A stretch of DNA of 60,522 nt from Aeropyrum sp. (lineage in GTDB: Archaea > Thermoproteota > Thermoprotei_A > Sulfolobales > Acidilobaceae), in NCBI GenBank assembly GCA_015523465.1, contig WAKF01000026.1, positions 1 through 60,522 on the forward strand, given 5' to 3'. Shown piece after piece: positions 6,912 to 31,468 of the stretch (positions are counted from its first letter, which is position 1; each line of letters starts with the position of its first letter). The position numbers and the translations under genes were made by a program. A model generated the notes under the pieces. The model made no database searches. It was given only the letters and a program-made list of their open reading frames with translations, and was not told the origin of the DNA.

Positions 6912-7424
6912 CTATCCGTATCGAAATATATCTACGTTACTTCTCTCCAGCGCTTTTTCTCGTAGCTCCACCAGCCATCGCGGCAGTTTTATCTCTTCAG
7001 GGCATCTAGAGGGTGTCATAGGCTTTATGTCGAGGACTGGCGTACCATCATATAGGTCGCAGTGATCTACGTAGAGTATGTTCCCCTCTACCTTGACGAG
7101 CCTCATTATAGTTACTGCTATAGGGTTCGGTCTTAACGGTGAAGCTGTGCAAAATACTCCAACTTCTGGAAGCTCTTCCTCTTTTATCCCTACCTTAAGG
7201 AACCCTTTAGGCTTGAAAACCTTCCTGAAGTCCTTGCCTTCAGCTTTATGTAAATGAGCTACCACTATAATGTGGGAGAATTCTTCTAGCCCCTTTAAGC
7301 CCTCCACGTAATCTGGAAGCACCTCAATCCTGGCTTTGACTCCTCTCCACGAGGTCCTTACTACCTCGTCCGAGTGCTCGTTTCTGACATAGCCTATAGG
7401 CTTGTATTTGATAATATCATTCAT
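6912..7424 (-). CDS. trmO: tRNA (N6-threonylcarbamoyl-adenosine37-N6)-methyltransferase TrmO
   Basis: A protein of the TrmO/YaeB (UPF0066) family, which N6-methylates t6A37 of certain tRNAs using SAM. The family pattern is clear: IGYVRNEH at the N-terminus, GLEEFSHIIVVAHLHK, the ASPLRPNPIAVT loop (active-site RPNPI) and DGTPVLDIKP. I prefer ATG 7424 because GAGGTGG precedes it at good spacing; ATG 7439 is a weaker alternative. It lies 25 nt after hypE on the same strand and is probably co-transcribed with the hydrogenase maturation genes, although no functional link is evident. Confidence 0.85.
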   Translation of the reverse strand: MNDIIKYKPIGYVRNEHSDEVVRTSWRGVKARIEVLPDYVEGLKGLEEFSHIIVVAHLHKAEGKDFRKVFKPKGFLKVGIKEEELPEVGVFCTASPLRPNPIAVTIMRLVKVEGNILYVDHCDLYDGTPVLDIKPMTPSRCPEEIKLPRWLVELREKALERSNVDIFRYG

Positions 7425-7449
7425 CCTAGGCCACCTCATTAATACCGCC

Positions 7450-8493
7450 CTAGCATATTCTAGGTACTAACTCTCCTCGAGGAGGCTCTAGTATCCTGAG
7501 CCCTCCAACACTGCTCCGTAATAAGACGTAGCCTCTATATTTTTCAGCTTTCCTTACCTCACCTACTATAGAGGCTTCTGTAAAGCCTAAGCTTCTAACG
7601 TACTCTACAACACTCTCTGCTACACTAGGATCTACAGACAGCACTGCTACCCCCTCACTAGCCAAGTACAACGGATCAATACCAAGTATACCAGCATAAC
7701 GTTCAACCTCAGACCTTATAGGCACATTGTCCTCCTCCACAACTATAACGCTACCGCTCTTCCTAGCCCACTCGTTAAGAACCATTGCCAAGCCTCCACG
7801 CGTGGGGTCACTAGCCGCATGTATATAACGGCCGTACCTTTCAACTAGGGGAAGCATTAGCTTCGAGAGCGGTCTTACGTCGCTTTTCAACCTACTCCTT
7901 CTTCGCTCCTCCTCAGCTTCAGCTCCTAGCTGATAAAGTAGAATAACGGCTCCATGATCTCCTACGGGCCCGCTAACAACGATCTTATCACCCGGCTTTG
8001 GCGCATCTACTATAAGTCTCTCAGCGAAGCCCACAACGACCGTATTTATTATTATACCGTCGAGACTACCTTTAGGCATCACCTTGAAATCTCCCCCCAT
8101 AACAATCACTCCCTCACTACTAAACACCTCCGACATGGAATCAACTATGACCTTCAAGTCATCTAAAGGAAACCCCTCTTCAACTACTATACTATCAAGG
8201 GCTGCAACGGGCTTACCACCCATCATCAAGACGTCATTGATAGAACCCGCCGCAGCCAAGACTCCAATATTACCTCCAGGGAAGAAATACGGCTTAACAG
8301 TATAAGAATCCGTTGAAACTACTAAATACCCTCCCCCCGGAAGGGGTATAGCAACGCCATCATCCATATACTCTAACCCGACAAACCCCTCGGGGGGCTT
8401 ACTGCGAGAAAATATGGGTACTATGAGCTTCTCTAGCAGCTCCATCATCTCAACGCCGCCAGACCCATGAGATAACTTTACGAACTCTTTCAT
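7450..8493 (-). CDS. hypE: hydrogenase maturation carbamoyl dehydratase HypE
   Basis: HypE dehydrates the carbamoyl group received from HypF into the thiocyanate that supplies CN- ligands of the [NiFe] site. It has the PurM/SelD-like fold with the N-terminal KLSHGSGG motif, GVLAAAGSINDVLMMGGKP and ASDPTRGGLAMVLNE. It ends in PRIC, and the C-terminal Cys is the acceptor of the carbamoyl group. ATG 8493 is chosen because GGGGGTG lies about 6 nt upstream; the in-frame GTG 8502 lies inside that SD. It follows the CooC-like and 117-residue genes on the minus strand and precedes trmO. hypD, hypC and hypF are encoded on the opposite strand. Confidence 0.93.
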   Translation of the reverse strand: MKEFVKLSHGSGGVEMMELLEKLIVPIFSRSKPPEGFVGLEYMDDGVAIPLPGGGYLVVSTDSYTVKPYFFPGGNIGVLAAAGSINDVLMMGGKPVAALDSIVVEEGFPLDDLKVIVDSMSEVFSSEGVIVMGGDFKVMPKGSLDGIIINTVVVGFAERLIVDAPKPGDKIVVSGPVGDHGAVILLYQLGAEAEEERRRSRLKSDVRPLSKLMLPLVERYGRYIHAASDPTRGGLAMVLNEWARKSGSVIVVEEDNVPIRSEVERYAGILGIDPLYLASEGVAVLSVDPSVAESVVEYVRSLGFTEASIVGEVRKAEKYRGYVLLRSSVGGLRILEPPRGELVPRIC

Positions 8494-8558
8494 AGCTAGC
8501 ACCCCCTAACTGATACTGCTCATACCCGCCTCTATTCAATTCCAGTCAGAATGCCATA

Positions 8559-8912
8559 CTATATTCGAACTGAGTAGGGACATGTGCTTCCCTGCCTTAT
8601 TACAACGTCCTCATCCCTAATAGCGAGGGCGGAGTCAACCTCCTCTACCTTAACGTTAAGGCCGGGTGGAGTACCAGCACTCCTAGCTCTAAGCGACTCA
8701 CCTACTACCACTACTTCGGCATTGGTTTCTGAGGCTAGCTTAAGTGCTTCAACAACCTTTCGACTAGTTAACAGTTTTACCGCGTCACGGTATACTACTA
8801 TCCTACCACAGTTGAACCCCTCCTTAAGCTCTAGAAAGTCTTCTATAGCGGCTAAAGCCTCTTCCTCGTCCGGATCTTCCAATATTAATATCAGCCTATC
8901 TCGGCACGACAT
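8559..8912 (-). CDS. hypothetical protein, coupled to CooC-like ATPase
   Basis: A 117-residue acidic protein I do not recognise. The first 45 residues are alpha/beta with several acidic runs (LEDPDEEEALAAIEDFLEL). A middle segment, AEVVVVGES, resembles a beta-strand-turn of a small alpha/beta fold. Cysteines occur at positions 3, 34 and about 111. Its ATG 8912 overlaps the 3' end of the CooC-like gene by 17 nt, so translation is probably coupled. hypE lies 65 nt downstream. The position suggests an accessory role in nickel-centre assembly, but nothing in the sequence proves it. Confidence 0.65.
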   Translation of the reverse strand: MSCRDRLILILEDPDEEEALAAIEDFLELKEGFNCGRIVVYRDAVKLLTSRKVVEALKLASETNAEVVVVGESLRARSAGTPPGLNVKVEEVDSALAIRDEDVVIRQGSTCPYSVRI

Positions 8913-9672
8913 AGCCCATGTCCACCAATAGCTTCAAAGCGATACCCCTGATAGCCTTTACCGCATTGCAGTCAGGCTTGTAGTCTATTGGTGCGTAGCC
9001 ATACTTGTCTGCAGTATATACTGTATCGTCGTGAGGCACGAAGCCAAGAACCTTTATACCATACCTTTCAAAAACCTTTAAGACTAGGTTCTTCTCATCC
9101 TCGCTCCTAACCTTATTAACTACTCCATATACCTTCTCCACGCCCAAGTCCTGGGCTAGCTGCGCTATTTTGACTGCGGTGACAACCGACTTAAAGTATG
9201 GCTCTGCAACTGCTAGAACAACGTTGGCGTATTTAGGCGTCGCGCGGCCGAAGATCTCTAGCCCAGGCTCCATATCTATAACTACTATCTCGTTCGGACC
9301 CGGCACTATGTGATGAATGATCTCTCTAACCGTTGCGTGAGACCCACATGCACACCCTATCCCCGCCCTCTCTATCTTAGTCATTATTAAAAGCTTAATG
9401 CCGCCGGGGCCCTCGATAGAGTACTTCCTTACTATCTCCTCTGGCTTCATGAGAAGCCTTAACCCAGTAGAGCTCCTCACCAGAAGTCTTGTAGGAATAG
9501 GCTTGCCCTCTTCAAACTTTTCTAGCGGTATACCTAGGGTAATTGCCAGGTTTGGATTATCATCGGCATCCACAGCTAAGACTCTAAAACCCATTGAAGC
9601 GTAGACCCTAGCCATTGTGCCGGCTATAGTAGTCTTCCCAGATCCTCCTTTACCTGTAACAGCCACCTTCAT
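8896..9672 (-). CDS. CooC-like P-loop ATPase, probable nickel insertion factor
   Basis: A 258-residue MinD/ParA-class ATPase closest in pattern to CooC, the dimeric Ni chaperone of CO dehydrogenase. It has a deviant Walker A (GKGGSGKTT, residues 7-15), DADDNPNLAITLG, a Cys-X-Cys (C107, C109 in GIGCACGSH) that in CooC binds metal at the dimer interface, and IDMEPGLEIF. ATG 9672 has GGAGGG upstream. No CO dehydrogenase and no HypA/HypB are in the window, while HypC, D, E and F are. I infer it serves the hydrogenase in place of HypB, as a Mrp/MinD-type ATPase does in Thermococcus. It could equally serve a CODH elsewhere. Confidence 0.82.
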   Translation of the reverse strand: MKVAVTGKGGSGKTTIAGTMARVYASMGFRVLAVDADDNPNLAITLGIPLEKFEEGKPIPTRLLVRSSTGLRLLMKPEEIVRKYSIEGPGGIKLLIMTKIERAGIGCACGSHATVREIIHHIVPGPNEIVVIDMEPGLEIFGRATPKYANVVLAVAEPYFKSVVTAVKIAQLAQDLGVEKVYGVVNKVRSEDEKNLVLKVFERYGIKVLGFVPHDDTVYTADKYGYAPIDYKPDCNAVKAIRGIALKLLVDMGYVVPR

Positions 9673-9798
9673 AGAGTTTATACCCTCCGGTTTACCCGGT
9701 CACCCCTCACAGACTATAAGTTATTTTTAATAGTAACGTCCTTTCTAAAGTTTAAATGAAAAATGGCTACACAAAATACTCGTGGGTGCTAGGTTATC

Positions 9799-11091
9799 GT
9801 GTCAAGCTTTACAGCAGCCTGCGGTTCACCCGGCTCCCTCTGCGAGACAACACCTAACTTCGACTGCTGGAAGTGCCCTGTTACTACGAGGCAAATAAGG
9901 ATTATAGAGTTCCTTTACCGTAAGAATAAGAATATTGCTGAGAGAGTCAAACGCTATATCTCCAAATACCTTGGCATGCTTAGAGAAAGCTATGGCAATG
10001 ACTTTAAGCTCAAAATAATGAACTTCTGCGGCACCCACGAGTGGAGCATAGTCCACTTCGGTATCAGACACGTAGTAGGAGACAGGATAGACTTAATACC
10101 CGGTCCGGGGTGCCCGGTATGCGTTACCCCCAGCTACTACATAGAACAAGCCATAAGGCTTGCTATGGACGGGGTAAGGGTCTACACCTATGGCGACGTG
10201 TTCAAACTTCCAGCACTTAAGGGATACCGGGGTGCAAGAAGCCTTCAAGAAGCTAAGGCTAAAGGGGCTAACGTGAAAGTCGTCCATAGCATAATTCACG
10301 CAGCTAAGGATGCAAGGGAGTATGGCCGCGATGCAGTATTTATTGGTATAGGCTTTGAAACCATTGCACCGGGCTATGCTGAAGCTATTTACAAGAATCT
10401 CGTTCCAGACAATCTTAAGTTCATGAGTCTAGTAAAGCTTACTCCTCCAGCTATGGAGTACACCCTTGAAGTAATGGATAAGATTAGCGGTGGTGATAAG
10501 CCTATTCACGGTATAATAGCTCCAGGCCATGTATCAACCATAGTCGGTGCTAAGGCTTGGAAGATTGCTGCAGATGAATATGGGATCCCCGTTGTTGTCT
10601 CAGGTTTCGAGCCTAACGATGTACTATTGTCAATAGCTGAGATCTTAAGGCAACTTGTGAAAGGCGAAGCTAGAGTAGTAATAGAATATACTAGGGCTGT
10701 CACCTGGGAGGGCGACTTAAAAGCCCAAAAGGTAATGAATAGAGTATTCGAGGCAGTAGACACCGCGTGGAGGGGGATAGGGTTTATACCCAAAAGCGGC
10801 CTCGCCCTTAAGGGTGAATACGCTAGAAAGTACGATGCCTTGGAGTATTTCGGGATACCTGATTTAACACCCGAGACCTGGAAGTACGACTTACCAGCTA
10901 GATGCAGATGCGCCGAGATAACTATAGGGCTTGCAAAGCCTGTTGATTGCCCCCTCTTCATGAAAGCATGTACACCCGAAAGGCCCATTGGACCCTGTAT
11001 GGCTAGCATGGAAGGCGCTTGTGCCGTCTGGGCACGCTTTGGGGGCTCCGGACTAGCGAGCGAAATAGCTAGAGAGATAGGCCTGTCTTGA
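9799..11091 (+). CDS. hypD: hydrogenase maturation scaffold protein HypD
   Basis: HypD, with HypC, is the scaffold on which the Fe(CN)2CO unit of [NiFe] hydrogenase is built. It carries a [4Fe-4S] cluster and a redox-active thiol pair. Signatures are NFCGTHEW, PGPGCPVC, GIGFETIAPGYA and the Cys-rich C-terminal region (CRCAE, CPLFMKACTPERPIGPCM). At 430 residues it is longer than typical (~370), owing to an N-terminal extension with CETTPNFDCWKCP containing extra cysteines. The start is GTG 9799. A TATA-like AAGTTTAAATG lies at about 9748-9758. It begins the plus-strand hypD-hypC-hypF operon, divergent from the CooC-like gene. Confidence 0.95.
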   Translation: MSSFTAACGSPGSLCETTPNFDCWKCPVTTRQIRIIEFLYRKNKNIAERVKRYISKYLGMLRESYGNDFKLKIMNFCGTHEWSIVHFGIRHVVGDRIDLIPGPGCPVCVTPSYYIEQAIRLAMDGVRVYTYGDVFKLPALKGYRGARSLQEAKAKGANVKVVHSIIHAAKDAREYGRDAVFIGIGFETIAPGYAEAIYKNLVPDNLKFMSLVKLTPPAMEYTLEVMDKISGGDKPIHGIIAPGHVSTIVGAKAWKIAADEYGIPVVVSGFEPNDVLLSIAEILRQLVKGEARVVIEYTRAVTWEGDLKAQKVMNRVFEAVDTAWRGIGFIPKSGLALKGEYARKYDALEYFGIPDLTPETWKYDLPARCRCAEITIGLAKPVDCPLFMKACTPERPIGPCMASMEGACAVWARFGGSGLASEIAREIGLS

Positions 11092-11104
11092 AGGTGTATA
11101 GACA

Positions 11105-11452
11105 ATGTGCTGGGCTGTCCCTGGTGTAGTGCTTGAGGTAAAGACCAATGGAGTCGCTCTAGTCGATATGGGTGATGGCGTGGCTAGGGAAGCTGTTATT
11201 GCAATAGAGGTTGATAGAGTTAAGCCCGGATCTATAGTCATGGTCCATGCTGGAGCCATCATTACAACAATCAACATAGACGCCCTAAGGGAGACCTTCA
11301 ACATGAAGAAGGAAATGGCTAGAGAGCTCGCCGAAATGGCGGGGGAAGACCCAGAGGAAGCTGTTAGGGAGGTTGAGGTCGAATTTAAGTCTCTCCTTGA
11401 AGCTATTGAACGGGCTAAGAGACACGGAATAACTGAGACGACCATCACATAA
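11105..11452 (+). CDS. hypC: hydrogenase maturation chaperone HypC
   Basis: HypC/HybG family chaperone that carries the Fe(CN)2CO unit from HypD to the large-subunit precursor through its N-terminal Cys2. The protein begins MCWAVPGVVLEV, the invariant MCxxxPGxV motif. At 115 residues it is longer than bacterial HypC (about 80-90); the extra length is a charged helical C-terminal tail. ATG 11105 has GAAGGTG about 8 nt upstream and lies 13 nt after hypD. hypF follows after 40 nt. Confidence 0.93.
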   Translation: MCWAVPGVVLEVKTNGVALVDMGDGVAREAVIAIEVDRVKPGSIVMVHAGAIITTINIDALRETFNMKKEMARELAEMAGEDPEEAVREVEVEFKSLLEAIERAKRHGITETTIT

Positions 11453-11492
11453 CTCGTTACTAGAGTAAGTCTATAATGATGAGGGCTAAGAT

Positions 11493-13829
11493 ATGCATAG
11501 AACCGCTCTACGCATCATAGTAGTTGGTACTGTGCAAGGCGTGGGTTTCAGGCCCTATGTAGAGATACTAGCTAGAAGAGCTAGCGTTGCAGGCTATGTT
11601 AAAAACCTTGGAGGAGGCGAGGTTGAGATACACGTTGAAGGCGACGAGCAGAGCGTATCGAACTTTATCGTTATGTTTGAGAAGTTGAAGCCGCCTGTTA
11701 TAAAGATAGAAAAACTTGTTATAAAACAAGTAAAACCCATAAACACCAGAGAGTTTCGAATAGAGAAAAGCAGTGGCGCACTTAAAACGCCCTCTGATAT
11801 ACCAGCAGACCTTGCTATATGTAGGGATTGCATAGAAGAGTTAGAAAATCCCTCTAGTAGAAGATACCGATATCCCTTCAATTCTTGCAGTTATTGCGGT
11901 CCCCGTTTTTCTATATTAGATGCTCTTCCCTACGATAGAGATAACACCTCCATGAGACACTTCAACCTATGCATGGATTGTAAGGTAGAATATAGTAACG
12001 CCGCCATAGGGGGCTTCAGAAGATATTATTACCAAGGCATATCTTGTCCTCGCTGCGGCCCCTCGGTAAAGCTATTAGATTCTGCTGGTACACCCCTTGA
12101 TGTTAAAGACCCTATCGCAGAGGCTGCTAAGCTCGTAGATGAAGGCTATATAGTCGCTGTCAAGGGGTTTGGAGGCTATCACTTAGCTGCGTTAGCTAGC
12201 GACGATGACGTAGTATTAAAGCTTAGAGAGAGGAAAAGGAGACCGTTTAAACCGTTTGCGGTGATGGCATTAAACCTTGAGGTAGCCTCTCAACTTGTAA
12301 AAATTTCTCCCAAAGCTGCTCAGGTGCTAACTTCCGAGCTTAGACCCATACTACTATTGCCAAAACGTGAAAATAGCCCCATATCGCCTTGGGTTTCACC
12401 AGGCCTTGATAAGGAGGGCGTGTTCCTTCCAGTAACAGCGCTCCATTATTTATTGTTGAAGAGCGTTAAGGATAGGTTTGCCATAATGACTAGCGGCAAT
12501 AAGAGTGGTAGTCCTATGTGCACTACCCTAGACTGTGTTAAGATTGCTCTTAAGGATGTAGTTGACTACATACTAGACCATAACTTAAAGATAGTGCATA
12601 GGGTCGATGACAGCGTAGCTAGGTTCACAAGGGGGAAGCTTGTTCTTATTAGGAGGGCTAGAGGGTTTGCGCCTCGCAGGATTAAACTTCCAATGCGAGT
12701 TGAAGGGCTAGCAGTAGCGTTTGGAGCCGAGCTAGATAACGTGGGTGGCATTGGTATTAGTGATTATGCAGTCTTAACACAATACATCGGTGACACTGAC
12801 GTTATTGAAGCTTTAGAGGGCCTCGAAAGGGAGTTGAAATGGCTTGCCAACGTCTACATTAAGGGAAACAAGATCTCGTATCTAGTAGCCGACTTAAACC
12901 CTGCATATAATTCCTCAAGACTCTGTGAAGAGTGGTCCCGGGATCTAGGGGTAACATGTGTAAGGATACAGCATCACTACGCACATGCACTGAGCTTATG
13001 TGCTGATGCGGGGCTCGAGCCTCCCTTTACAGCTATTACCATAGATGGAGTGGGCTACGGCTTAGACGGTATGGCCTGGGGCGGCGAGGTTCTGGTAGTA
13101 GATTATAACGGGTTTGAGCGGGTGGGCCACCTAAAATACTCTCCGATGCCGGGAGGGGATAGCGCGGCCTTGTATCCTGCTAAGATGGCAATAGGCTTAC
13201 TGGTGGAAGACCTAGGCTATAGAAAAGCGCTCGATGTAATAGAGAGGCTGGGACTTCACAAGGCTCCTCCCATGAGTGGAATAGACGACGCTAGACTCGT
13301 CTCACTCCAGGCGCTAAAAGAGGCCCTTAAGACGTCGAGCCTTGGAAGGTTCCTAGACGCTGTATCAGCCGTTCTAGGAGTAAGGGTTAAGAGAACCTTT
13401 GAGGGAGAGCCTGCCATAGCACTAGAGTCCTTCGCGTCAAAAGCTAGGGTAAGAGAAGTTGATACTCGCCGCCTTAAGGCCTTATCTGATATATATTTGA
13501 AGAGCGAGGGCAATAGGACTATAGTTGACACCCCGCGTTTCTTCTCGGATCTTGTCGAGGAATACTTGAACGGCGCTAAGCCAGAAGACATAGCATTGTT
13601 AGCTCAAGAAGCTGTGGGCTACATGCTAGGCTTAATTGCATGCAATGCAAGCGAGGGTAAAGTAGTGGGCTTGACCGGCGGCGCGGCCGTTAACGAGTAC
13701 GTTGCAAGGGGCGTAGAAAAGGCGCTTAGAGAGTGTAGGGCTCGAGTAATAATGCACTCCAAGGTCCCGCCCGGAGATGGGGGTATCGCTTTAGGTCAAA
13801 TCTATCATGTAGCTTTATCTAGAAAGTAA
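11493..13829 (+). CDS. hypF: carbamoyltransferase HypF
   Basis: HypF makes carbamoyl-adenylate from carbamoyl phosphate and ATP and transfers the carbamoyl group to the C-terminal Cys of HypE. Domain order is complete in 778 residues. It starts with an acylphosphatase domain (VGTVQGVGFRPYV), followed by two zinc fingers (CRDC, CSYCGPR, CMDC, CPRCGPS, about 108-195). A YrdC-like domain (KGFGGYHLAAL, RPFKPFAVM) and a Kae1-like domain (HHYAHAL, DGVGYGLDGMAWGGE, PGGDSAALYPAKMA, LTGGAAVNEYV) follow. The segment between the third and fourth zinc pairs lacks the usual RRFHAQ-type sequence. ATG 11493 follows GAGGG. Last gene of hypDCF. Confidence 0.94.
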   Translation: MHRTALRIIVVGTVQGVGFRPYVEILARRASVAGYVKNLGGGEVEIHVEGDEQSVSNFIVMFEKLKPPVIKIEKLVIKQVKPINTREFRIEKSSGALKTPSDIPADLAICRDCIEELENPSSRRYRYPFNSCSYCGPRFSILDALPYDRDNTSMRHFNLCMDCKVEYSNAAIGGFRRYYYQGISCPRCGPSVKLLDSAGTPLDVKDPIAEAAKLVDEGYIVAVKGFGGYHLAALASDDDVVLKLRERKRRPFKPFAVMALNLEVASQLVKISPKAAQVLTSELRPILLLPKRENSPISPWVSPGLDKEGVFLPVTALHYLLLKSVKDRFAIMTSGNKSGSPMCTTLDCVKIALKDVVDYILDHNLKIVHRVDDSVARFTRGKLVLIRRARGFAPRRIKLPMRVEGLAVAFGAELDNVGGIGISDYAVLTQYIGDTDVIEALEGLERELKWLANVYIKGNKISYLVADLNPAYNSSRLCEEWSRDLGVTCVRIQHHYAHALSLCADAGLEPPFTAITIDGVGYGLDGMAWGGEVLVVDYNGFERVGHLKYSPMPGGDSAALYPAKMAIGLLVEDLGYRKALDVIERLGLHKAPPMSGIDDARLVSLQALKEALKTSSLGRFLDAVSAVLGVRVKRTFEGEPAIALESFASKARVREVDTRRLKALSDIYLKSEGNRTIVDTPRFFSDLVEEYLNGAKPEDIALLAQEAVGYMLGLIACNASEGKVVGLTGGAAVNEYVARGVEKALRECRARVIMHSKVPPGDGGIALGQIYHVALSRK

Positions 13830-13843
13830 AGTGGATGCCCTAC

Positions 13844-14353
13844 CTAGGTCCTAGGTCCTTCGTTACCTGAGCAAACGCTAGTGACTAGGGTAAGGAGGGC
13901 CCTACGGGCTCTTTCAAGGCACTTGTACATTGGGGGGCTGACTTCCAGTGTGAAGTCTATAGCAGCAGGCTCGCACCCTATGAAGTAAACCCTAGGGGGT
14001 AGGACTTTGAGTGCTTTAGCGATCTGCAGTGCACTCTGTGGATTTATTTCGTGTAGTTGGGCGATACTAGTAACATAATCATTGCTACTACTCTTCACAT
14101 CTTCGAGTTCCAATACGTATAGCTCCCCAGGCTCGCCGCCCATGCTAATAGCATCTAGTATAATCAGGACATCATAACCTTCCATTAGCTGTTGAACCAT
14201 CATAATGCCGTTAGTACTCGCTTCTAGAACGTCTATGCCACCGATCCTTCTCAGCTCGGCTTCTACGCTAGCTAGTAGGCGTATCCCGAAGGAGTCGTCT
14301 CCTTGAAGTAAACTGCCGAAACCTGCTATCAACACTTTCTTAGAGCAAGCCAT
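13844..14353 (-). CDS. [NiFe] hydrogenase maturation endopeptidase (M52, HycI/HyaD-like)
   Basis: A 169-residue M52 protease that should remove the C-terminal peptide of the hydrogenase large subunit after nickel insertion. The three expected Ni ligands are present: Asp20 in GFGSLLQGDDSFG, Asp67 in LIILDAISMG and His101 in AQLHEINP. The EPGEL turn after Asp67 and the C-terminal FIGCEPAAIDF segment also fit the family. It is the last gene of the minus-strand hydrogenase operon and overlaps the preceding DUF6084-like gene by 14 nt. It is convergent with hypF. Confidence 0.9.
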   Translation of the reverse strand: MACSKKVLIAGFGSLLQGDDSFGIRLLASVEAELRRIGGIDVLEASTNGIMMVQQLMEGYDVLIILDAISMGGEPGELYVLELEDVKSSSNDYVTSIAQLHEINPQSALQIAKALKVLPPRVYFIGCEPAAIDFTLEVSPPMYKCLERARRALLTLVTSVCSGNEGPRT

Positions 14354-14957
14354 CCTCTTCAGCCCTCCTTAATATGTCCTCGAGCATCTCGCTATAGCTT
14401 GGATAAAATTTACTCCTTTTAAGTTCCTCGAGCTTCTCTAGTACGTCACGCCTAATTTTTATCCAAATCAGGTCTCCCCCGTAGAAGGTCCTTATAATTG
14501 TGTTCCAGTCTTCAAAATCTAATATGAACCGGGATTCGAGGGGCGGGTCTGATGGTAGCGTGTAGTATAGTACTCTTCCGCTTTCAGGTTCCCTATAGAG
14601 TGCGAAACCCTCTAGCACGGCTACCAACGGGATTTTTTTGACCTCCCTACCCTTAAACCTAAGTAGGAGGGCCGCATCCATCTCAGCAGTCACAGGCAAA
14701 TAAGCCTCTGCCTCCGCCTCGTCCTTGAAAGGACCTGTTACAACCTGGCTAAAGCTAAGGGCTTCTCGCGCTAGCTCAGGCCTCACGTTAATATAAAGAG
14801 GATACTCCACAAACACCACAATCTTGCCCACAACACTAACTACCTCAACACTCTTAGCCCTGTTCCTAAATTTCAACTTCATTAAAGCCATTGGAGCCGC
14901 AGAGTAGCTAAGAGGCTTGAGAGCTTCTACTTTAAACGAGATCTTAGGCGACTCCAT
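14340..14957 (-). CDS. DUF6084-like hydrogenase-associated protein
   Basis: A 205-residue protein of unknown function. From memory it resembles DUF6084 proteins encoded with bacterial group 1h hydrogenases. Shared features are an N-terminal ISFKVEALKPLSYSAAP (family pattern F-V-x-P-x-x-Y-A-A-A-P), a VTGPF segment near the middle followed by YLPVT, and a C-terminal WIKIRRDVLEKLEELK. The body appears beta-rich and the C-terminus helical; no catalytic motif or metal site is visible. It overlaps both operon neighbours (13-14 nt). An assembly, targeting or electron-transfer role is possible but untested. The family assignment needs an HMM search. Confidence 0.65.
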   Translation of the reverse strand: MESPKISFKVEALKPLSYSAAPMALMKLKFRNRAKSVEVVSVVGKIVVFVEYPLYINVRPELAREALSFSQVVTGPFKDEAEAEAYLPVTAEMDAALLLRFKGREVKKIPLVAVLEGFALYREPESGRVLYYTLPSDPPLESRFILDFEDWNTIIRTFYGGDLIWIKIRRDVLEKLEELKRSKFYPSYSEMLEDILRRAEEDGLL

Positions 14958-15399
14958 AACTACCCCTCCTAGGCAAACTTATCCTCAACCCTTTCTTCCA
15001 ACTCCGAGCGGCCTCTTTAATCCTCTTCTCACTAGAATGAATAGAGCATGAAGCCGGATCACCTGTATGGCACTCACAATCTGGATCATTACAAAAGCCG
15101 TGGGCGCTTCCATGGAAAAAGCGGAACTCGTCCATGAACTTCTTCTCGGCTTCCTGTAATCCTTCATCTGTTAACGTATAAAGGTCTCCATCAATTCTTA
15201 TATAACCTCTATTTACTAGTAGGTCGATACATTTAAGTACTACAGATGTGTTAGCTCCAACCATTCTTGCTATATCATCTATGCCAAACTTTTCAAGCCC
15301 CGCATAAACGTGAAGGAAGACACAGACTTGAAAGACCTCATCGAGCATCCTAAGAAACTCCAGCTCTTCTATACTAGTATCCACCGGGTTTCCATCCAT
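14944..15399 (-). CDS. winged-helix protein with Cys/His-rich C-terminal motif
   Basis: A 151-residue protein. Residues about 30-85 look like a winged helix-turn-helix (DDIARMVGANTSVVLKCIDL, then a wing, GYIRIDGDLYTLTDEG). This is followed by a helix and a Cys/His-rich segment, HGFCNDPDCECHTGDPASC, ending in a basic tail. The Cys/His spacing could bind zinc, an Fe-S cluster or nickel. It sits inside the hydrogenase operon, overlapping the degenerate protease gene by 26 nt and the DUF6084-like gene by 14 nt. It may be a metal- or redox-sensing regulator of this locus, or an assembly factor with a wHTH scaffold. I do not recognise a named family. Confidence 0.7.
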   Translation of the reverse strand: MDGNPVDTSIEELEFLRMLDEVFQVCVFLHVYAGLEKFGIDDIARMVGANTSVVLKCIDLLVNRGYIRIDGDLYTLTDEGLQEAEKKFMDEFRFFHGSAHGFCNDPDCECHTGDPASCSIHSSEKRIKEAARSWKKGLRISLPRRGSYGVA

Positions 15400-15967
15400 T
15401 CTCCAAGCCCCTCCTACAAAGATTTCCTTCAGGATCTACGAAAGCATACAGAGTTTTCACAGCCTTTCTATAATAGGATTCCATGCCCGCCAACCTCAAG
15501 ATAGCTTTAACCACGTTAGGTAAGGCTTCATAGACTCGTTTACTAAGCCTGTTGCCATACATCACATCTTGAGGCTCTACCTCCACGACTGTAAACCTCC
15601 TACCCAAATCTCCCCCATAAAGTTTTATCAAGTATACTAAGCTCCGAAGGTCTATCGCACCACTAACCGATTCCCCTATAAATCGTTGAACCTCATCCTC
15701 TCCAGGCATAAGAATCTCGTTGATTTGATAAATTCTGAGAGACCCAGGCTCCCATCCCCGCTTTACAGCCCCCACAAGTATATACCGGCGGGCATCTACT
15801 TCTCTAATCCTGTGAAATGCGGCAACAGCACTATAGCTCAGGTCTTCGACTAGCACGCTCTCTTCCTCCTTTAATATTGCAGAAAAGACGTCTACCATTA
15901 GGGGACCTATCCCGTAATCTGATAGACAGTAATAGCCTATCCCCCCAATCATTAAATTATATTGCAA
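15374..15967 (-). CDS. degenerate M52 hydrogenase maturation protease-like protein
   Basis: A 197-residue protein with the M52 fold pattern. It has an N-terminal GIGYYCLSDYGIG, a central ILVGAVKRGWEPGS, and the C-terminal VVEVEPQDVMYGNRLSKRVYEALPNV in full family style (key residues E-P, G-x-x-L-S, A-L-P). Aligned by eye with the intact protease of the same operon, all three Ni ligands are replaced: Tyr18 for the second acidic residue, Gly66 for Asp, and about Gly103 for His. It is therefore probably not a protease. It lies 16 nt downstream of the large-subunit gene. A chaperone or large-subunit-binding role is inferred. Confidence 0.75.
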   Translation of the reverse strand: MQYNLMIGGIGYYCLSDYGIGPLMVDVFSAILKEEESVLVEDLSYSAVAAFHRIREVDARRYILVGAVKRGWEPGSLRIYQINEILMPGEDEVQRFIGESVSGAIDLRSLVYLIKLYGGDLGRRFTVVEVEPQDVMYGNRLSKRVYEALPNVVKAILRLAGMESYYRKAVKTLYAFVDPEGNLCRRGLENGWKPGGY

Positions 15968-15983
15968 ATGATAACCACCTTGG

Positions 15984-17837
15984 TTACACGCTACACGAGC
16001 AGGTGGTCACATCCCTTACTAACACTTTACCATTACCTACCATCATGTGTACTGTGCATGGCATGCATGGATCGAAACTCCTAAGCGCTCTGAGTACGTC
16101 AAGACCCGTTATGTCATCGGGAGTACTCGTTTCTTCAAGTATAGGAGTGTTCATTGCAGCATCTTCATAAGGTCCCGGCTGTCCCCAAGGATCTCTAGGT
16201 GATGCGTTCCAGGTCGATGGCGTTATTATCTGGTAGTTATAGATCTTACGGTCCCTCAAGACTAGATGGTGAGTTAAGAACCCCCTACCAGCCTCATAGA
16301 AGCCGACCCCAATCCCTTCCTTAGGTATGTTATGCGGCGTCCAAACTCGAGTTCTTCCAGCTCTCAGGTACTCTAGCGACTTGAGGAGGAAGTGCATACC
16401 CACACCAACAACATATGCTATATGGTAAGCTCTAGCTCTGTTCCTCTCGAGAGCGTTAAGAGCCTTAGGTATCCTCCACTCTAGATCCATTTCGGGCAAG
16501 TTAGCTCCCTTAGGCACATGCATCACAAGCTTATCACCTTTGATTCTTATAAAGGGATTCTCGGGCAACTTCTTAGCAAGCACTGTAACCCAGTGCCTAG
16601 CTAATGGGCCTCCTCCCGTTTCAAAAACCATTCTATTCCATCTTGGAGCGGTCGACCACGTGTACTTCTCCTTCCAGTTCAAAGGTCCTGGCTTTGGCAA
16701 CGTAACCTTATTCCAAGGGTGGTGTAGGGTTAATTCGTTACCCAGAGGATCTCTTTCCACGATCTTCTCGTTCCATTGCTCGTAATATGCGTGTTCAACG
16801 TACTCCTCTATGCCAAGGTTTATCTCTACTAAATCTGTAGTTATTAATTCTCCTTCCTTTATAACACCGGGAGTGACAAGACGCTTTTCTCCCCACTCCC
16901 TAGCACTTTCATATCTATAAAGATCTCCCGATTCCGCGATCTCAGGGTCATCGTATATGCCACCACATATAAGATTAACTTTAGAGAATCTGCCTACCTC
17001 TTCATACTCGGGTTTAACATTGTACCAGAAGTTAATTATGTCCTCCCACACTAAAGCCATTATTTTAGCCCAGTCATAGACCTTTATCATACGTGTTAGA
17101 TAGTTAGTGAACAAGTCTGGAGTCACGGTAGTTGTTACACCGCCCGGAACCAATGTTGAAGGATGCGGGTATCTTCCAAGCATTAGGCTAAACATCTCCC
17201 TTGCAATCCTTGTTACTTGAAGAGCCTCGAGATATAGTTTACCTGTCAGAGGATTAAGCGCATCCATGATATCTATAATCTTAGTAAACCCGTGAACATC
17301 TCTATACTCTGCTAGAGTCCGTTTAGCCTCATCTACAACACTAGGGAATGATTTAGATGTGAGGGCCGTAGAATAGTCAGGGCCTGCAAGCAGGAACATG
17401 TGAGTCGAATGGTCATATATCATTTCCGCTGCCGCTGCCATATTCCTCATAGCGACTGCTAAGGGCGGAGGGCTTATCCCGTAAGCCATTTCCTGCGCCA
17501 TAACAGAGGTTACAGAGTGCACACCACCACATACTCCACACGCTCTGCTACTTATCATAGCCGCATCACGTGGGTCCCTACCCCTCAGTATGACTTCATA
17601 GCCCCTGAACAATGCTGCCACACTCCTAGCATCAACAACCTTCCTATTATCAACATCTATTTTCACATAGAAGGCTAGGTCCCCTGCTACACGTGATACG
17701 GGATCCCAGAATATCTCTTTAAGCCTAAGCTTACCCCCCTTACCGCCATTACCTTCGTCCCCATTACCCCCTTCATGCTTATGCTTGTGCATATCCTCTT
17801 CTCTACACGCTTCCCAAGACATCCTATCTAGGCACAT
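15984..17837 (-). CDS. [NiFe] hydrogenase large subunit, group 1h-like
   Basis: The catalytic subunit (617 residues) holding the NiFe(CN)2CO site. The L1 motif is RACGVCGGVHS and the L2 motif is DPCMPCTVH, followed by about 20 residues expected to be cleaved by the maturation protease. Long blocks resemble actinobacterial HhyL/HucL, including NPLTGKLYLEALQVTR, RYPHPSTLVPGGV, ETGGGPLARHW, ALERNRARAYH and GQPGPYEDAAMNTPI. An N-terminal extension contains MHKHKHEGGN and a Gly/Asn-rich run. ATG 17837 is fixed by a strong GGAGGTGA that includes the stop codon of the small-subunit gene. No signal peptide, so probably cytoplasmic or at the inner face of the membrane. Confidence 0.95.
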   Translation of the reverse strand: MCLDRMSWEACREEDMHKHKHEGGNGDEGNGGKGGKLRLKEIFWDPVSRVAGDLAFYVKIDVDNRKVVDARSVAALFRGYEVILRGRDPRDAAMISSRACGVCGGVHSVTSVMAQEMAYGISPPPLAVAMRNMAAAAEMIYDHSTHMFLLAGPDYSTALTSKSFPSVVDEAKRTLAEYRDVHGFTKIIDIMDALNPLTGKLYLEALQVTRIAREMFSLMLGRYPHPSTLVPGGVTTTVTPDLFTNYLTRMIKVYDWAKIMALVWEDIINFWYNVKPEYEEVGRFSKVNLICGGIYDDPEIAESGDLYRYESAREWGEKRLVTPGVIKEGELITTDLVEINLGIEEYVEHAYYEQWNEKIVERDPLGNELTLHHPWNKVTLPKPGPLNWKEKYTWSTAPRWNRMVFETGGGPLARHWVTVLAKKLPENPFIRIKGDKLVMHVPKGANLPEMDLEWRIPKALNALERNRARAYHIAYVVGVGMHFLLKSLEYLRAGRTRVWTPHNIPKEGIGVGFYEAGRGFLTHHLVLRDRKIYNYQIITPSTWNASPRDPWGQPGPYEDAAMNTPILEETSTPDDITGLDVLRALRSFDPCMPCTVHMMVGNGKVLVRDVTTCSCSV

Positions 17838-17846
17838 GCTATCAGC

Positions 17847-18932
17847 TCACCTCCCGCTCATCTTCATCAGCTCCAGCCTCAACTTCTTCCTCTTCCACCT
17901 CGGGTTAGTATCGGTCTCCAGCTTCAGAGTCAAATCTCTGCCAACTCTCTTTATGAGCCCTGGTAGCCCCAGCCTATCGGATATCATACTAAGCTTATGC
18001 CGGAAGGTTGGGGTGTAGAAGGGTGAGAATGCGTCTGGGAACCCGGGCATTGTGCATCCAATACAAGGTCCTCCCATGTTAGTTACGCCTCCTACCCCGT
18101 TAATCCAGCCCACCTTGTTGACATTGCATTTAACTACCGGACCCCAACAGCCAAGGGATAAGAGGCACTCTTTGTCCCCAAACTCGCGCGCAAAGTTGCC
18201 CTCCTCAGCATAGCCTGCTCTAGGACATGCTTGCCTGTTTGTGTCGCCATATGCGAACTTAGGTCTTCCTAGTTCGTCTAGCTCCGGCGGCGGGGCTAGG
18301 CCTATAGCATAGAGGATGATCATGGCGACTGTCTTCATGAAATTATCGCCCTGAGGAGGACATCCAGGGACATTTATTATTGGGAGGCCAAGCTTACTTC
18401 TATAATCGGGGCCCAAGAATTCTAGCAAGCCCATAGCGTTAGTAGGGTTTCCTCTAGCCGCCGGGATGCCACCCCAGGCAGCACAGGTACCTATAGCAAT
18501 AACTGCTAGCGCATTAGGAGCAAGCCTTTTTAACCACTCTGACGTAGTTATAGGCTTATTCCTCTTCTTATCGAAACCTAATGCAGCCCACCAGCCGCCA
18601 GTCCTCTCAGCTATGCTTTCATCAGGCACCGAGCCTTCCAGAACCACTACATAAGGACCTAACTCGCCTTTAGCAGCCTTCTCGTAGTATGATACCAGCT
18701 CTTCTCCAGCCTCTACAGCTAGGACCGGGTGAATTAATACTACGCGGGGAAGACCAGGGATCCTACCCCCGAGTACGTCTTCAAGCGACGGGTTAGTAGC
18801 ACCAGCAACAGATATAGTACATCCATCACAGCCTAATCCTGTCGACAACCATAGAATGTATATTGTATCAACTTTCTTCTTTTCCTGGGATACCTCGTTG
18901 TCGGCACCTGTATTTTGTTGTTGAACTTCCAA
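17847..18932 (-). CDS. [NiFe] hydrogenase small subunit without Tat signal
   Basis: The electron-transfer subunit (361 residues). Proximal-cluster cysteines are C35 and C38 (GCDGCT), C150 (GTCAAWGG) and C191 (NVPGCPP). Distal-cluster candidates are C236, C256 and C262, and medial ones are C269, C290 and C293 (GGPCIGC). The residue normally a His distal ligand, three before C236, is Arg233. The block FLGPDYRSKLGLPIINVPGCP matches group 1h style. There is no twin-arginine leader or C-terminal membrane anchor; the first 22 residues are polar. TTG 18932 opens the six-gene operon. H2 oxidation feeding a quinone or soluble acceptor is inferred. Confidence 0.93.
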   Translation of the reverse strand: MEVQQQNTGADNEVSQEKKKVDTIYILWLSTGLGCDGCTISVAGATNPSLEDVLGGRIPGLPRVVLIHPVLAVEAGEELVSYYEKAAKGELGPYVVVLEGSVPDESIAERTGGWWAALGFDKKRNKPITTSEWLKRLAPNALAVIAIGTCAAWGGIPAARGNPTNAMGLLEFLGPDYRSKLGLPIINVPGCPPQGDNFMKTVAMIILYAIGLAPPPELDELGRPKFAYGDTNRQACPRAGYAEEGNFAREFGDKECLLSLGCWGPVVKCNVNKVGWINGVGGVTNMGGPCIGCTMPGFPDAFSPFYTPTFRHKLSMISDRLGLPGLIKRVGRDLTLKLETDTNPRWKRKKLRLELMKMSGR

Positions 18933-18950
18933 CTAGATCCCTATAATTTA

Positions 18951-18980
18951 ACGTTAACGTCTACCACCATATATAATTAT
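18951..18980 (-). promoter_or_regulatory. hydrogenase operon promoter and palindromic operator candidate
   Basis: A TATA-like stretch (ATAATTATATATG on the minus strand, about 18968-18980) lies about 40-48 nt upstream of the small-subunit start at 18932. Between TATA box and start is the perfect palindrome ACGTTAACGT (18951-18960), positioned where a repressor or activator would touch the initiation region. The start site itself is inferred. Confidence 0.5.
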
Positions 18981-19021
18981 ATCCTAAATTAGACAGTATA
19001 AAATTCCCAACCAAGACTTAA

Positions 19022-19036
19022 CCTTATAAAATATAA
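19022..19036 (+). promoter_or_regulatory. promoter (TATA box) of ABC importer operon
   Basis: CTTATAAAATATAAC lies about 24-38 nt upstream of ATG 19060, and GGGTG provides an SD about 7 nt before the start. It faces the hydrogenase promoter across a 127-nt divergent intergenic region. Confidence 0.5.
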
Positions 19037-19059
19037 CTTTTAAGCTTGGGTGCTTATAA

Positions 19060-20232
19060 ATGCAACTAATGCTTAGCAATAGGCTAGCATTAGTTGCAGT
19101 TTTAATAGCGGCGATCTTAGCGATAGGCGTAATCGCTTATCTTATTCTATCACCAGGTAGCGGAGAAGAAACCGTTACCGAAGCCCCTGCATCAACAAGG
19201 GAAGCCAAGGAAACTGCAACCATCACCCAGAGCCCTGTAGCCGAAGAGGAAAAGGAAGAGCAAAAAGAAGAATTAATCCCCTTCAGGTTTCAATCTGGCT
19301 ACGGCATAAGGGTTATACCCGATATTGGAATTGCCTTTAACGTCTTTGAGCAATGCGGACTTAGGCTAGAAGGAGGTGGGCCTCAGAAGATAGCTGGGAG
19401 AGAAGTAGTAGCACCCTACATAGTTGGCGGCAGGCCAGAACCTATTCTTAAGGGCGACGCCTACGGAGGAGTACTACCTACGCTATTAAGCCTAAAGCCT
19501 ATCGAGCAGGGGGCTCCGCTCAAGGTGGTGGCTTCGCTTTCCGATGCTTCACACCCAATAATTGTTGTAAGGAAAGACCTGAATGTAAAAAGCCCCGAGG
19601 ATCTGAAAGGCCTTAAGATAGCTACTACGCGTCCAGGTTTCCCACCCCACTTAACCTTACTCAACTTACTCGAGAAGGTGGGGCTTAGCGAAAAAGATGT
19701 AGAGATTATAAGCGTCTCGGGCGGCCCTCTAGGACCCATAGTATTGAATATGCTTAAAAAAGGCGAAGTGGACGCTGCTAGCCTACCTCCCCAAGAAGCA
19801 GCCTACGTCCTTTCCCAGGGTGTTGCAAAGCTCCTAGAGATCGATGTAGAGCTTGAAAAGATCCTTTTCACTTCGGTAATAGTTAACTCTAAGTGGGCAG
19901 AAGAGAATCCTGAAGCAGTAGTTAGGCTAATCTGTGCTGTTGATAAGATATTAGAGATAATACACACAGAAGACCCTGAGATAGTTGCCGACGCCCTTCT
20001 CAACAATACTCCCCCGGAAATACGCGAGTACTATAGTCAATTCGATAGAGAGACGGTTGTCCTCTACATTACTCTTCTACGTGAAGGATTCTCGAGGAGC
20101 GTTGAAATAGATATGGAAGCAGTAGAGAATATAATAGAGATTGCAAAGAAGCTGGGTATAGTATCGCAGCTAACGCCGGAACAGGTTGTGGACACAAAAT
20201 ATCTCGAAGAGTACTTAAAGCAAAAAAGATAA
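19060..20232 (+). CDS. ABC transporter substrate-binding protein (NMT1/TauA/SsuA-like)
   Basis: A 390-residue extracytoplasmic binding protein. It has an N-terminal hydrophobic signal or membrane anchor (about 8-31), then an acidic Glu/Thr-rich linker (about 34-72), then a periplasmic-binding type II domain with SPEDLKGLKIATTRPG, the hinge region and EVDAASLPPQEA. The family carries nitrate, sulfonates, taurine, thiamine precursors, bicarbonate or small aromatic compounds. No residues fix the ligand here. The linker and retained N-terminal helix suggest tethering to the membrane. First gene of the ABC-FmdE cluster beside the hydrogenase. Confidence 0.88.
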   Translation: MQLMLSNRLALVAVLIAAILAIGVIAYLILSPGSGEETVTEAPASTREAKETATITQSPVAEEEKEEQKEELIPFRFQSGYGIRVIPDIGIAFNVFEQCGLRLEGGGPQKIAGREVVAPYIVGGRPEPILKGDAYGGVLPTLLSLKPIEQGAPLKVVASLSDASHPIIVVRKDLNVKSPEDLKGLKIATTRPGFPPHLTLLNLLEKVGLSEKDVEIISVSGGPLGPIVLNMLKKGEVDAASLPPQEAAYVLSQGVAKLLEIDVELEKILFTSVIVNSKWAEENPEAVVRLICAVDKILEIIHTEDPEIVADALLNNTPPEIREYYSQFDRETVVLYITLLREGFSRSVEIDMEAVENIIEIAKKLGIVSQLTPEQVVDTKYLEEYLKQKR

Positions 20233-20235
20233 AGG

Positions 20236-20976
20236 GTGTCTCCGGAATTGCCCCCTATTAAGGTTGCCCTTGAACAATGCAACGTCTTTTATGGAAGCCT
20301 TCAAGTCCTTGACGAGTTAACCCTTAACGTCAAGGAGGGCGAATTTGTGGCTATTGTAGGTCCTAGCGGCTGCGGTAAGACTACCTTACTCAACCTCATA
20401 GCTGGTATTCTTGAGAAGGCAACTATTAATTGTAGAAAGCGCGAAGTCAAGGCTTCTAAGGTAGGCTATGCTACTCAGGAAGATCTTTTACTTCCTTGGA
20501 GGACTGTGTGGGGTAACATATTATTGCCGTTAGAGCTACTACGTGTTAAGCCTGACACCAGCTATCTTAAACGGCTTCTGAGTATATCTGGGTTGGCGGA
20601 TTTCATAGATTATCGACCCCATCAGCTTTCAGGGGGGATGAGGAAGAGGGTTGTCTTACTCCGTGCATTATCTTTGAAGCCGGACCTCCTACTCCTTGAC
20701 GAGCCCTTTGCTAACATTGATGCATACACGAAGATCCAGCTTCAAAGGCTTTTAATGAAGCTTCTCTCTAACCTGAGAACAACAACTATACTAGTAACTC
20801 ACGATATAGAGGAGGCAGTGTCTCTAAGCAATAGGATCGTAATACTATCAAGGAGGCCTGCAAGGGTAGTGAAGGCTATTGAGGTAGAAGCTCCTTGGCC
20901 TCGCGACCCCCTGGAGGCTAGGAGGGAATTGAAGGATTACATAAATGAGGTGTACGGTTATGTCTTCAATAAGTAG
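20236..20976 (+). CDS. ABC transporter ATP-binding protein (TauB/SsuB-like)
   Basis: A 246-residue ATPase of the nitrate/sulfonate/taurine importer class. Walker A is GPSGCGKTT, the Q-loop follows in GYATQEDLLLPWRT, the signature is LSGGMRKRV, Walker B is LLLLDEPFANID and the switch His is in THDIEEAV. The DLLLPWRT loop after the Q-loop is characteristic of this class. GTG 20236 starts 3 nt after the binding-protein gene; TTG 20248 is a possible alternative. It energises uptake with the neighbouring permease. Confidence 0.92.
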   Translation: MSPELPPIKVALEQCNVFYGSLQVLDELTLNVKEGEFVAIVGPSGCGKTTLLNLIAGILEKATINCRKREVKASKVGYATQEDLLLPWRTVWGNILLPLELLRVKPDTSYLKRLLSISGLADFIDYRPHQLSGGMRKRVVLLRALSLKPDLLLLDEPFANIDAYTKIQLQRLLMKLLSNLRTTTILVTHDIEEAVSLSNRIVILSRRPARVVKAIEVEAPWPRDPLEARRELKDYINEVYGYVFNK

Positions 20977-21739
20977 CTTGTTACTAATTGTTAAAAAGGT
21001 AGCTGCAATAGCTGGCTTTTGGGTTGTCATAATAGTTGTGTGGCAAACGTTGGTTAGTTATGGAGTTCTACCTGAGTATATCTTTGGCTCGCCGCTAGGG
21101 GTTTATTACGAATTCCAAAGGTACGTGGAAATAGGGTTTATTTATGTAGATGTGCCTATAACTTATACAGAGGCTTTTGCAGGTCTTATTTTAGGGATAA
21201 CACTCGGCGTTACACTGGCTATAATAGGAGCGTTTTACACGGGGCTCGTGGAACCCATAATAATCACTTTCAAGTCAATACCCCACATACTTATTGCCGC
21301 TATGATTATAACGCTCCTCGGTGTCGGGGTGCTCCCAAAAATACTAATATCAATGGTGTTTTCCTTCTCCATAGTGTTCTTCAACGTATATGCCGGTATG
21401 ACTTCGATAAGCCACAACCTAATATCGCTATTTAAACTTTATAAAGCTAGCCGGAGAGATATGCTATTGAAACTCCTCTTACCCTACGCCATACTATGGC
21501 TTTCTGCCTCCTTAAGGCAAGCGTTCCTGCTCTCATTCTCGGGGGCATTTCTAGGCGAGTTTCTCGCGGCACGCTACGGCCTCGGTTATAGGCTTCAGTA
21601 TTATATAACAGTTTACAACACTAACGGGGTATGGGTTATAGCAGTACTGATTATGGTTCCTACCCTGATCTTCCTAGCTATATTAAGGGTTATAGAGAGG
21701 AAAGTGAAGGAAATCTATGGCCTAAGCGGGGCTCATTAG
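20960..21739 (+). CDS. ABC transporter permease (TauC/SsuC-like)
   Basis: An integral membrane protein of about 259 residues with six hydrophobic segments. The EAA-type coupling loop is present in LFKLYKASRRDMLLKLLLPYA, and the GEFLAARYGLGYRLQYYI segment is typical of TauC/SsuC permeases. ATG 20960 is chosen because GAGGTG lies 7 nt upstream; ATG 20945 is in frame but sits directly over that SD. The gene overlaps the ATPase gene by 17 nt, so the two are translationally coupled. Third member of the importer. Confidence 0.9.
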   Translation: MSSISSLLLIVKKVAAIAGFWVVIIVVWQTLVSYGVLPEYIFGSPLGVYYEFQRYVEIGFIYVDVPITYTEAFAGLILGITLGVTLAIIGAFYTGLVEPIIITFKSIPHILIAAMIITLLGVGVLPKILISMVFSFSIVFFNVYAGMTSISHNLISLFKLYKASRRDMLLKLLLPYAILWLSASLRQAFLLSFSGAFLGEFLAARYGLGYRLQYYITVYNTNGVWVIAVLIMVPTLIFLAILRVIERKVKEIYGLSGAH

Positions 21740-21813
21740 ATTCTCTATTGTGAATCCATGTTAACGCTTTTTACTTAATTAAGAACTATTACCATAATAA
21801 TAGGTGTCCCTCT

Positions 21814-22632
21814 TTGGAAGCAAGTAGAGAAGGCCAAGAAAGCATCGTGCCAGAACTCGAACCAAGGATATTTTACAATCCTAGGTACGAGATTAACGAA
21901 CTTGTTAAAAGAGGCGATATGCGGAAGTTAATGATAAAGGCTGCAGAGCTTCACGGTCATTTCTGCATTGGTCTTGCTATGGGCGTTAAAGCTAGCATGC
22001 TTGCCCTGAAGGAGCTTGGTGTCGAACTGCCTGAAAGGGATGTGACAGAGCATGTTAGGCACGAGCTAATAGCGGTCGTAGACAACAACTTATGCTTCGC
22101 TGACGGAGTGCAAATGATCATAGGGGCTACACTAGGTAATAATAGTCTTGTATTCAGGGATATGGGTAAGATCTCGTTGACTCTTATCGATAAAAAGAGT
22201 AAAAGGGCCGTTAGGGTAACCATGATTAAGCCTTTCACCTCGCCTACCATAGAGAACGAGAAGTTCCAGGAACTATTTAGGAAGGTTATGGTAAGACGAG
22301 AACAGGTTCCCAAGAAGGAAGCTGAGGCCTTTAGGAGCATGATGGATCGTGCCTCCCTTGAAGTCCTATCACTACCTGAAAACGAGTACTTCAAAGTCGA
22401 GAAGTTTGAAGTAGAAGATGTAAACGACGAAGCCTTCAAAGGGCCCTCAGTACAATGGGTTAAATGCGCCCATTGTGGAGGCCTCGTAATTGAGTCAAAG
22501 GCCTTCAAAAAAGAAGATCAAGGGAAGAAATATTACTGTGCCGATTGCGCCGGCGAAAAGGTCTATTCCGTGGTTGGCAGGAAAATTGACAAGATAAGCC
22601 TTAGCGATATAGCTAGGCTAATTAGAATGTAG
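21814..22632 (+). CDS. FmdE family protein with C-terminal zinc ribbon
   Basis: A 272-residue protein of the FwdE/FmdE family. The HGHFCIGLAMGVKA motif (about residues 48-61) supplies the His/Cys metal site of this fold, and HELIAVVDNNLCFADGVQMI continues the conserved core. A C-terminal zinc ribbon (CAHCGG and CADCAG, about 214-250) resembles that of the formylmethanofuran dehydrogenase E subunit. No formylmethanofuran dehydrogenase genes are present. It follows the ABC importer by 74 nt on the same strand. A role in handling the imported ligand or a metal for the hydrogenase or molybdoenzymes is possible. TTG 21814 has GGTG upstream. Confidence 0.82.
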   Translation: MEASREGQESIVPELEPRIFYNPRYEINELVKRGDMRKLMIKAAELHGHFCIGLAMGVKASMLALKELGVELPERDVTEHVRHELIAVVDNNLCFADGVQMIIGATLGNNSLVFRDMGKISLTLIDKKSKRAVRVTMIKPFTSPTIENEKFQELFRKVMVRREQVPKKEAEAFRSMMDRASLEVLSLPENEYFKVEKFEVEDVNDEAFKGPSVQWVKCAHCGGLVIESKAFKKEDQGKKYYCADCAGEKVYSVVGRKIDKISLSDIARLIRM

Positions 22633-29016: not shown

Positions 29017-29072
29017 CGCGGTATCACGCTCAACTGTGAAGAGTGGGGAAAAATGAGGTTAAGAGGGGAGGG

Positions 29073-30047: not shown

Positions 30048-30053
30048 GGAGCC

Positions 30054-31454: not shown

Positions 31455-31468
31455 GCCACCTCACCCCC

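Follow-up and report, generated by a model that had tools for sequence, protein, structure and literature searches.

The window analysed here, the whole 60,522-nucleotide stretch of Aeropyrum sp. contig WAKF01000026.1, carries six minus-strand open reading frames at 13844-18932 encoding the two subunits of a [NiFe]-hydrogenase and four accessory proteins (Table 1). All six were confirmed in the order and at the coordinates given by an earlier sequence-only reading, which had described one-strand genes overlapping or lying within 16 nt of each other: gaps of 9 and 16 nt are followed along the operon by overlaps of 26, 14 and 14 nt. The large subunit matches the NiFeSe_Hases family profile (E 4e-81) and the small subunit the Oxidored_q6 and NiFe_hyd_SSU_C profiles, and the active-site and Fe-S cysteines are intact in both. 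Neither subunit has a Tat signal, as had been claimed; the small subunits of 1g-type archaeal enzymes start with SRRDFLK-type motifs. The pairing of a degenerate M52 protein with an intact protease was also borne out, the protein at 13844-14353 keeping all three metal-ligand positions that the other has lost, and the DUF6084-like protein was recognised with a profile score of 47.9 bits (cut-off 25). According to a PF00374 search, there is no second hydrogenase in the Aeropyrum genome of the window (1.80 Mb, 96.6% complete). The same six genes, in unchanged order, make up an operon in a Sulfolobaceae-like genome (G138, locus L051) from another archaeal family, so chance cannot account for the arrangement; the G138 enzyme is 72% identical to that of the window.

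Table 1. Genes of the hydrogenase region and of the nitrate reductase in the window
Feature	Coordinates	Strand	Remarks
TrmO-like protein	6912-7439	-	Also near the CooC-like gene in Sulfolobaceae locus L051
HypE	7450-8502	-	AIRS/AIRS_C
117-aa protein	8559-8912	-	No Pfam match; C-terminus IRQGSTCPYSVR
CooC-family ATPase, 258 aa	8896-9672	-	Deviant Walker A GKGGSGKTT, CxCxxHxxVR metal motif
HypD	9799-11091	+	Family match
HypC	11105-11452	+	Family match
HypF (cyanide ligand synthesis)	11493-13829	+	Family match
Intact M52 hydrogenase maturation protease	13844-14353	-	HycI match, 63 bits
DUF6084 protein	14340-14957	-	Beta-sandwich and C-terminal helices, no Cys
Cys-rich wHTH protein	14944-15399	-	Winged helix and C-terminal HGxC-x4-CxC...C motif
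Degenerate M52 (protease-like) protein	15374-15967	-	Three metal-ligand positions all replaced
Hydrogenase large subunit, 617 aa	15984-17837	-	L1 RACGVC, L2 DPCMPCTVH, cleavable C-terminal tail
Hydrogenase small subunit, 361 aa	17847-18932	-	CDGC proximal-cluster motif, no Tat signal
NarH	30054-31454		Nitrate reductase; with neighbouring ORFs, region 28222-35314
NarG	31469-35314		Nitrate reductase; same region

The large-subunit tree groups the window enzyme with the G138 copy (100/100), the two archaeal members sampled in the 1l-like lineage, and places this pair as sister to group 1l (96/96), a reference set inferred from gene layout and taxa and not from HydDB. Group 1h joins the archaeal pair and 1l at 100/98 and is monophyletic without the window enzyme (100/100), and all 1g-type archaeal enzymes lie outside. 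The small-subunit tree gave the same placement beside 1l with weaker support (88/72). The relatives at loci L063 and L065 were taken as 1l because their layout, the small-subunit gene, five genes for small transmembrane proteins and then the large-subunit gene, matches the published 1l cluster with HylTM1-5 between the subunit genes (PMC9561532), and the taxa match too. The large subunit is 49-53% identical to the 1l relatives, which a genome-collection scan detected in Gemmatimonadota, Chloroflexota, Actinomycetota, Bacteroidota, Gammaproteobacteria and one haloarchaeon, against 43-47% to group 1h and about 26-31% over most of the length to other bacterial groups; no closer relative turned up among plasmids, phages or PDB entries. 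At the proximal cluster, the window enzyme, G138 and 1l carry the motif CDGC, and 1h carries CDGD. A placement of the archaeal pair basal to 1l and 1h together was rejected by the AU test (p 0.008). The window enzyme is best called 1l-like, by its sequence a putative archaeal sister branch of the sampled bacterial and haloarchaeal 1l enzymes and not a canonical member. A separate archaeal group 1 lineage, about 45% identical, was seen at loci L026, L027 and L028 (genomes G421, G355 and G245); it falls outside both 1h and 1l in the tree, its small subunits have no obvious Tat signal, its subunit genes are adjacent and HypA is present.

Accessory genes were compared at 11 1l loci and 67 1h loci. 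The wHTH partner was found at 8 of the 1l loci and at none of the 1h loci, the degenerate M52 protein at all 11 and, as scored, at 2 of the 67, and the CooC-like ATPase gene at 7 and none. The reverse distribution was obtained for HypA (0/11 and 56/67), GTPase HypB (0/11 and 54/67), DUF6084 (0/11 and 59/67) and for DUF5947 and a protein of about 470 aa, both of which occur at all 67 1h loci and at no 1l locus and are missing from the window. Both archaeal operons have the wHTH protein, the degenerate M52 protein, the CooC-like ATPase and DUF6084, and both lack the HylTM and Rieske/NifU genes that most bacterial 1l loci have wholly or partly. HylTM genes between the subunit genes are not universal in the 1l clade, since the subunit genes are adjacent in L059 and L066. 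The expectation that the accessory proteins would be conserved next to hydrogenases elsewhere held for this closely spaced set; the suggestion that the enzyme has a set of its own did not, as the set is mostly that of 1l with DUF6084 as the one 1h-type protein.

The degenerate M52 protein has lost its metal-ligand positions in every copy and yet keeps conserved blocks of its own; it is therefore a conserved pseudo-protease. Six residues of the wHTH protein are invariant (H100, G101, C103, C108, C110 and C118), and its predicted structure combines a confident winged helix with a low-confidence Cys-rich tail. No specific fold relative emerged for this model, Foldseek returning generic MarR/IclR-like winged helices, none under 1e-3. 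DUF6084, which has no Cys, was predicted to be a beta-sandwich with C-terminal helices, and on these grounds we favour a scaffold role over electron transfer; fold-based assignment of a function was tried and gave only low-TM beta-sandwich matches.

The sequence-only reading had assigned the large subunit to group 1h under the label Hhy/Huc, which merges two groups, as Huc belongs to group 2a (PMC6883350). A genuine group 1h (Hhy/HofGK) hydrogenase is unlikely. The best PDB matches of both subunits are to the group 1h enzyme 5aa5 (HofG, 579 bits, next match 217; HofK, 357 bits), the window shares with that enzyme 46% identity, a cytosolic subunit pair and an operon with DUF6084, a 1h-operon gene, and a maturation protease, and the AU test does not reject, at the 5% level, a clade of the archaeal pair and 1h (p 0.078). 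Against this stand both subunit trees, the higher identity to 1l, CDGC in place of CDGD, the 1l markers (wHTH, degenerate M52 and CooC-like ATPase, the first and last not being 1h features) and the missing DUF5947, 470-aa protein and HypA/HypB (GTPase). NifU is a further 1h feature that the window does not share. Phylogeny of both subunits, proposed as a check, kept the enzyme apart from the Tat-bearing 1g-type archaeal enzymes and put it beside 1l, not inside 1h.

That the enzyme is a variant of the membrane-bound group 1g hydrogenase common in archaea can practically be dismissed. Family members (G007, G026 and G034) do have 1g-type enzymes with 43-45% identity to that of the window, but their small subunits carry Tat signals, no isp1/isp2 genes lie between the window's adjacent subunit genes (9 nt apart), and a single clade with 1g-type archaeal enzymes was refuted by the AU test (p 2.8e-6). 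An H2-sensing or inactive hydrogenase, not conserving energy, would fit the cytosolic location, the winged-helix protein in the operon and the absence of a membrane partner. We regard it as improbable, since the active-site Cys, the Fe-S ligands, the cleavable tail and its protease are all intact, no histidine kinase or PAS partner was seen, and high-affinity H2 uptake is ascribed to the related 1l enzymes (PMC9561532). The similarity to 1l (HylSL) covers the closest clade in both trees, CDGC, the lack of Tat, the shared accessory proteins and the lack of HypA/HypB, while the absence of HylTM1-5 and of the Rieske/NifU protein and the presence of DUF6084 set the window apart from it. From these sequence comparisons, we conclude with good confidence that the locus would encode a cytosolic, aerobic-type H2-uptake [NiFe]-hydrogenase of an early-branching archaeal lineage in the 1l/1h superclade, closest to 1l and acquired horizontally by an Aeropyrum-genus archaeon. 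What is supported is the broader claim that a hyperthermophilic archaeon has a cytosolic uptake hydrogenase, without Tat signal, that belongs to the 1h/1l superclade.

The hydrogenase operon and the hyp genes lie together in a low-GC stretch (7450-22632), with GC of 0.466 against 0.530 in the rest of the window (among the lowest values for stretches of that length, rank 4 of 182), and a search of five congeneric genomes, three with a completeness of 96% or more, did not detect the hydrogenase. The low GC and this absence suggest that the block was probably transferred horizontally into the Aeropyrum-genus genome. The locus had been expected to bear on the origin of high-affinity H2 oxidation; it says little on an archaeal origin because the block looks horizontally acquired. 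The TrmO-like gene was possibly carried along with the hydrogenase block. The same low-GC stretch also holds an NMT1/THI5-type ABC transporter and an FmdE protein (19060-22632), and an FmdE homologue occurs near the 1l locus L064 (4593-5351).

The CooC-family ATPase gene sits beside hypE and hypD. Its product has both features of the CooC type, the deviant Walker A and the CxC metal motif, and its best PDB match is the CooC nickel ATPase of CO dehydrogenase (3kje, 8e-29, 104 bits), with which it shares the fold family. Identity as the Mrp-type HypB_AT (3vx3) was set aside, with 30.5 bits against 104 for CooC. The C-terminus of the adjacent 117-aa protein resembles that of a gene beside the CooC-like gene in L051 (5213-5530). 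In the CooC tree, the hydrogenase-linked proteins form one clade (100/99) apart from ChCooC1 and other archaeal copies, one of which (L157) adjoins a gene read as CODH/ACS; unlike the CO-dehydrogenase CooC, members of this clade carry the motif [C/U]xCxxHxxVR and are linked to hydrogenase genes. By genome, CooC-like ATPases were detected in 10 of 11 with 1l enzymes and in none of 3 with 1h enzymes, and they are absent from five genomes of the same genus as the window. Three actinobacterial genomes (G430, G431 and G436) have 5-10 CooC-like paralogues each, some with internal TGA.

HypA was not detected above the cut-off in the window genome (G000, 96.6% complete) or in any of the 11 1l genomes, and GTPase HypB was not found in the window genome, in G138 or in 10 of the 11 1l genomes, absences weakened by the many 1l genomes that are MAGs. 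G138, however, does carry one HypA. All 12 archaeal relatives that have other group 1 enzymes gave a HypA match, and so the HypA search works in this lineage. Since HypA and GTPase HypB are missing, and the CooC-like gene lies beside hypE/hypD and is common to 1l loci and not to 1h loci, we propose that the CooC-like ATPase may insert nickel in place of HypA/HypB, a function suggested by the co-occurrence.

In four bacterial loci the first Cys of the CxC motif is replaced by an in-frame TGA after which the frame continues intact (L057:11971-12759, L064:6099-6920, L066:15493-16326 and L161:1501-2250); the window and G138 ATPases have Cys at this position. SelB was detected above the cut-off in six genomes (G426, G430, G431, G433, G435 and G436) and in none of the Cys-type genomes G429, G432 and G434. 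SelB is present in most of the TGA-bearing genomes. The source genome of L161 (G428) has the TGA and no SelB above the cut-off; given the close match of its copy to L066, this may be a binning error. Downstream, a GGU-loop hairpin can be drawn, and only for L066 and L161 is its folding clearly better than that of shuffled sequences. The UGA codon in the bacterial 1l CooC-like ATPases probably encodes selenocysteine, which would define a new selenoprotein family; a limited literature search, weak evidence of novelty, found no published selenocysteine CooC-like ATPase.

We lean somewhat toward a hydrogenase-dedicated CooC-like clade that has replaced HypA/HypB for nickel insertion in the whole subgroup (1l and its archaeal sister), with the ATPase being a selenoprotein (UxC for CxC) in several bacterial phyla. 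The competing explanation, nickel insertion without the CooC-like ATPase (by undetected HypAB, a HypB_AT-like Mrp protein or free nickel) and another purpose for the CooC-like gene, is a tentative but serious one. According to one report, the CooC of R. rubrum does not serve the Coo [NiFe]-hydrogenase (PMC6006190); Mrp/MinD proteins are common and the genomes are drafts. The R. rubrum report, however, concerns the CODH-type clade, the linkage and co-occurrence of the CooC-like gene are specific to 1l, HypA/HypB are absent, the clade is separate with its own motif, and the bit scores of the window ATPase speak against the Mrp alternative. A CooC-type ATPase has also been noted in the group 1m cluster (PMC9561532).

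In the proposed system, HypCDEF would assemble the Fe(CN)2CO unit, nickel would be handed over by the CooC-like ATPase through its CxCxxH motif and the intact M52 protease would cut the large-subunit tail after DPCMPCTVH, with the degenerate M52 protein, the Cys-rich winged-helix protein and DUF6084 as putative assembly or scaffold factors. Electrons from H2 would pass through the small-subunit Fe-S clusters and some carrier to the quinone pool, and from there to haem-copper oxidases, for which five matches were detected in the window's genome, or to nitrate reductase, a possible electron acceptor for H2 judging from the narGH genes in the window.

An archaeal enzyme of the 1h/1l superclade is not new. 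In HydDB (2016), S. islandicus and Robiginitalea biformata appear as distant members of 1h whose role is given as unknown (PMC5037454), and Leung et al. 2024 group both S. islandicus M.16.2 and a Halopiger together with 1h/1l (PMC11018855). The S. islandicus 1l entry WP_080561888.1 (PMC5037454, PMC11018855) is, like the window enzyme, a thermophilic archaeal member of this superclade and probably of the same lineage. G138 is probably another species: its identity as S. islandicus was set aside because its RpoB, near that of S. solfataricus, is clearly different from it. The additions made here are the occurrence in Aeropyrum, the mixed accessory set and the pattern of CooC in place of HypAB; no description of group 1l maturation was found in the literature examined.

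Among high-affinity hydrogenase lineages, group 1l is reported to be the most abundant in several desert and Antarctic soils. The superclade now reaches Aeropyrum; in this hot, oxygen-respiring genus, the enzyme is absent from the other members sampled. The archaeal operon, which has neither membrane nor Rieske genes, shows the accessory parts travelling with the enzyme, so they are likely essential. Because HypA/HypB are missing and a CooC-like ATPase is linked to the enzyme, the locus offers a directly testable hypothesis for nickel insertion, with heat-stable proteins suited to biochemistry.
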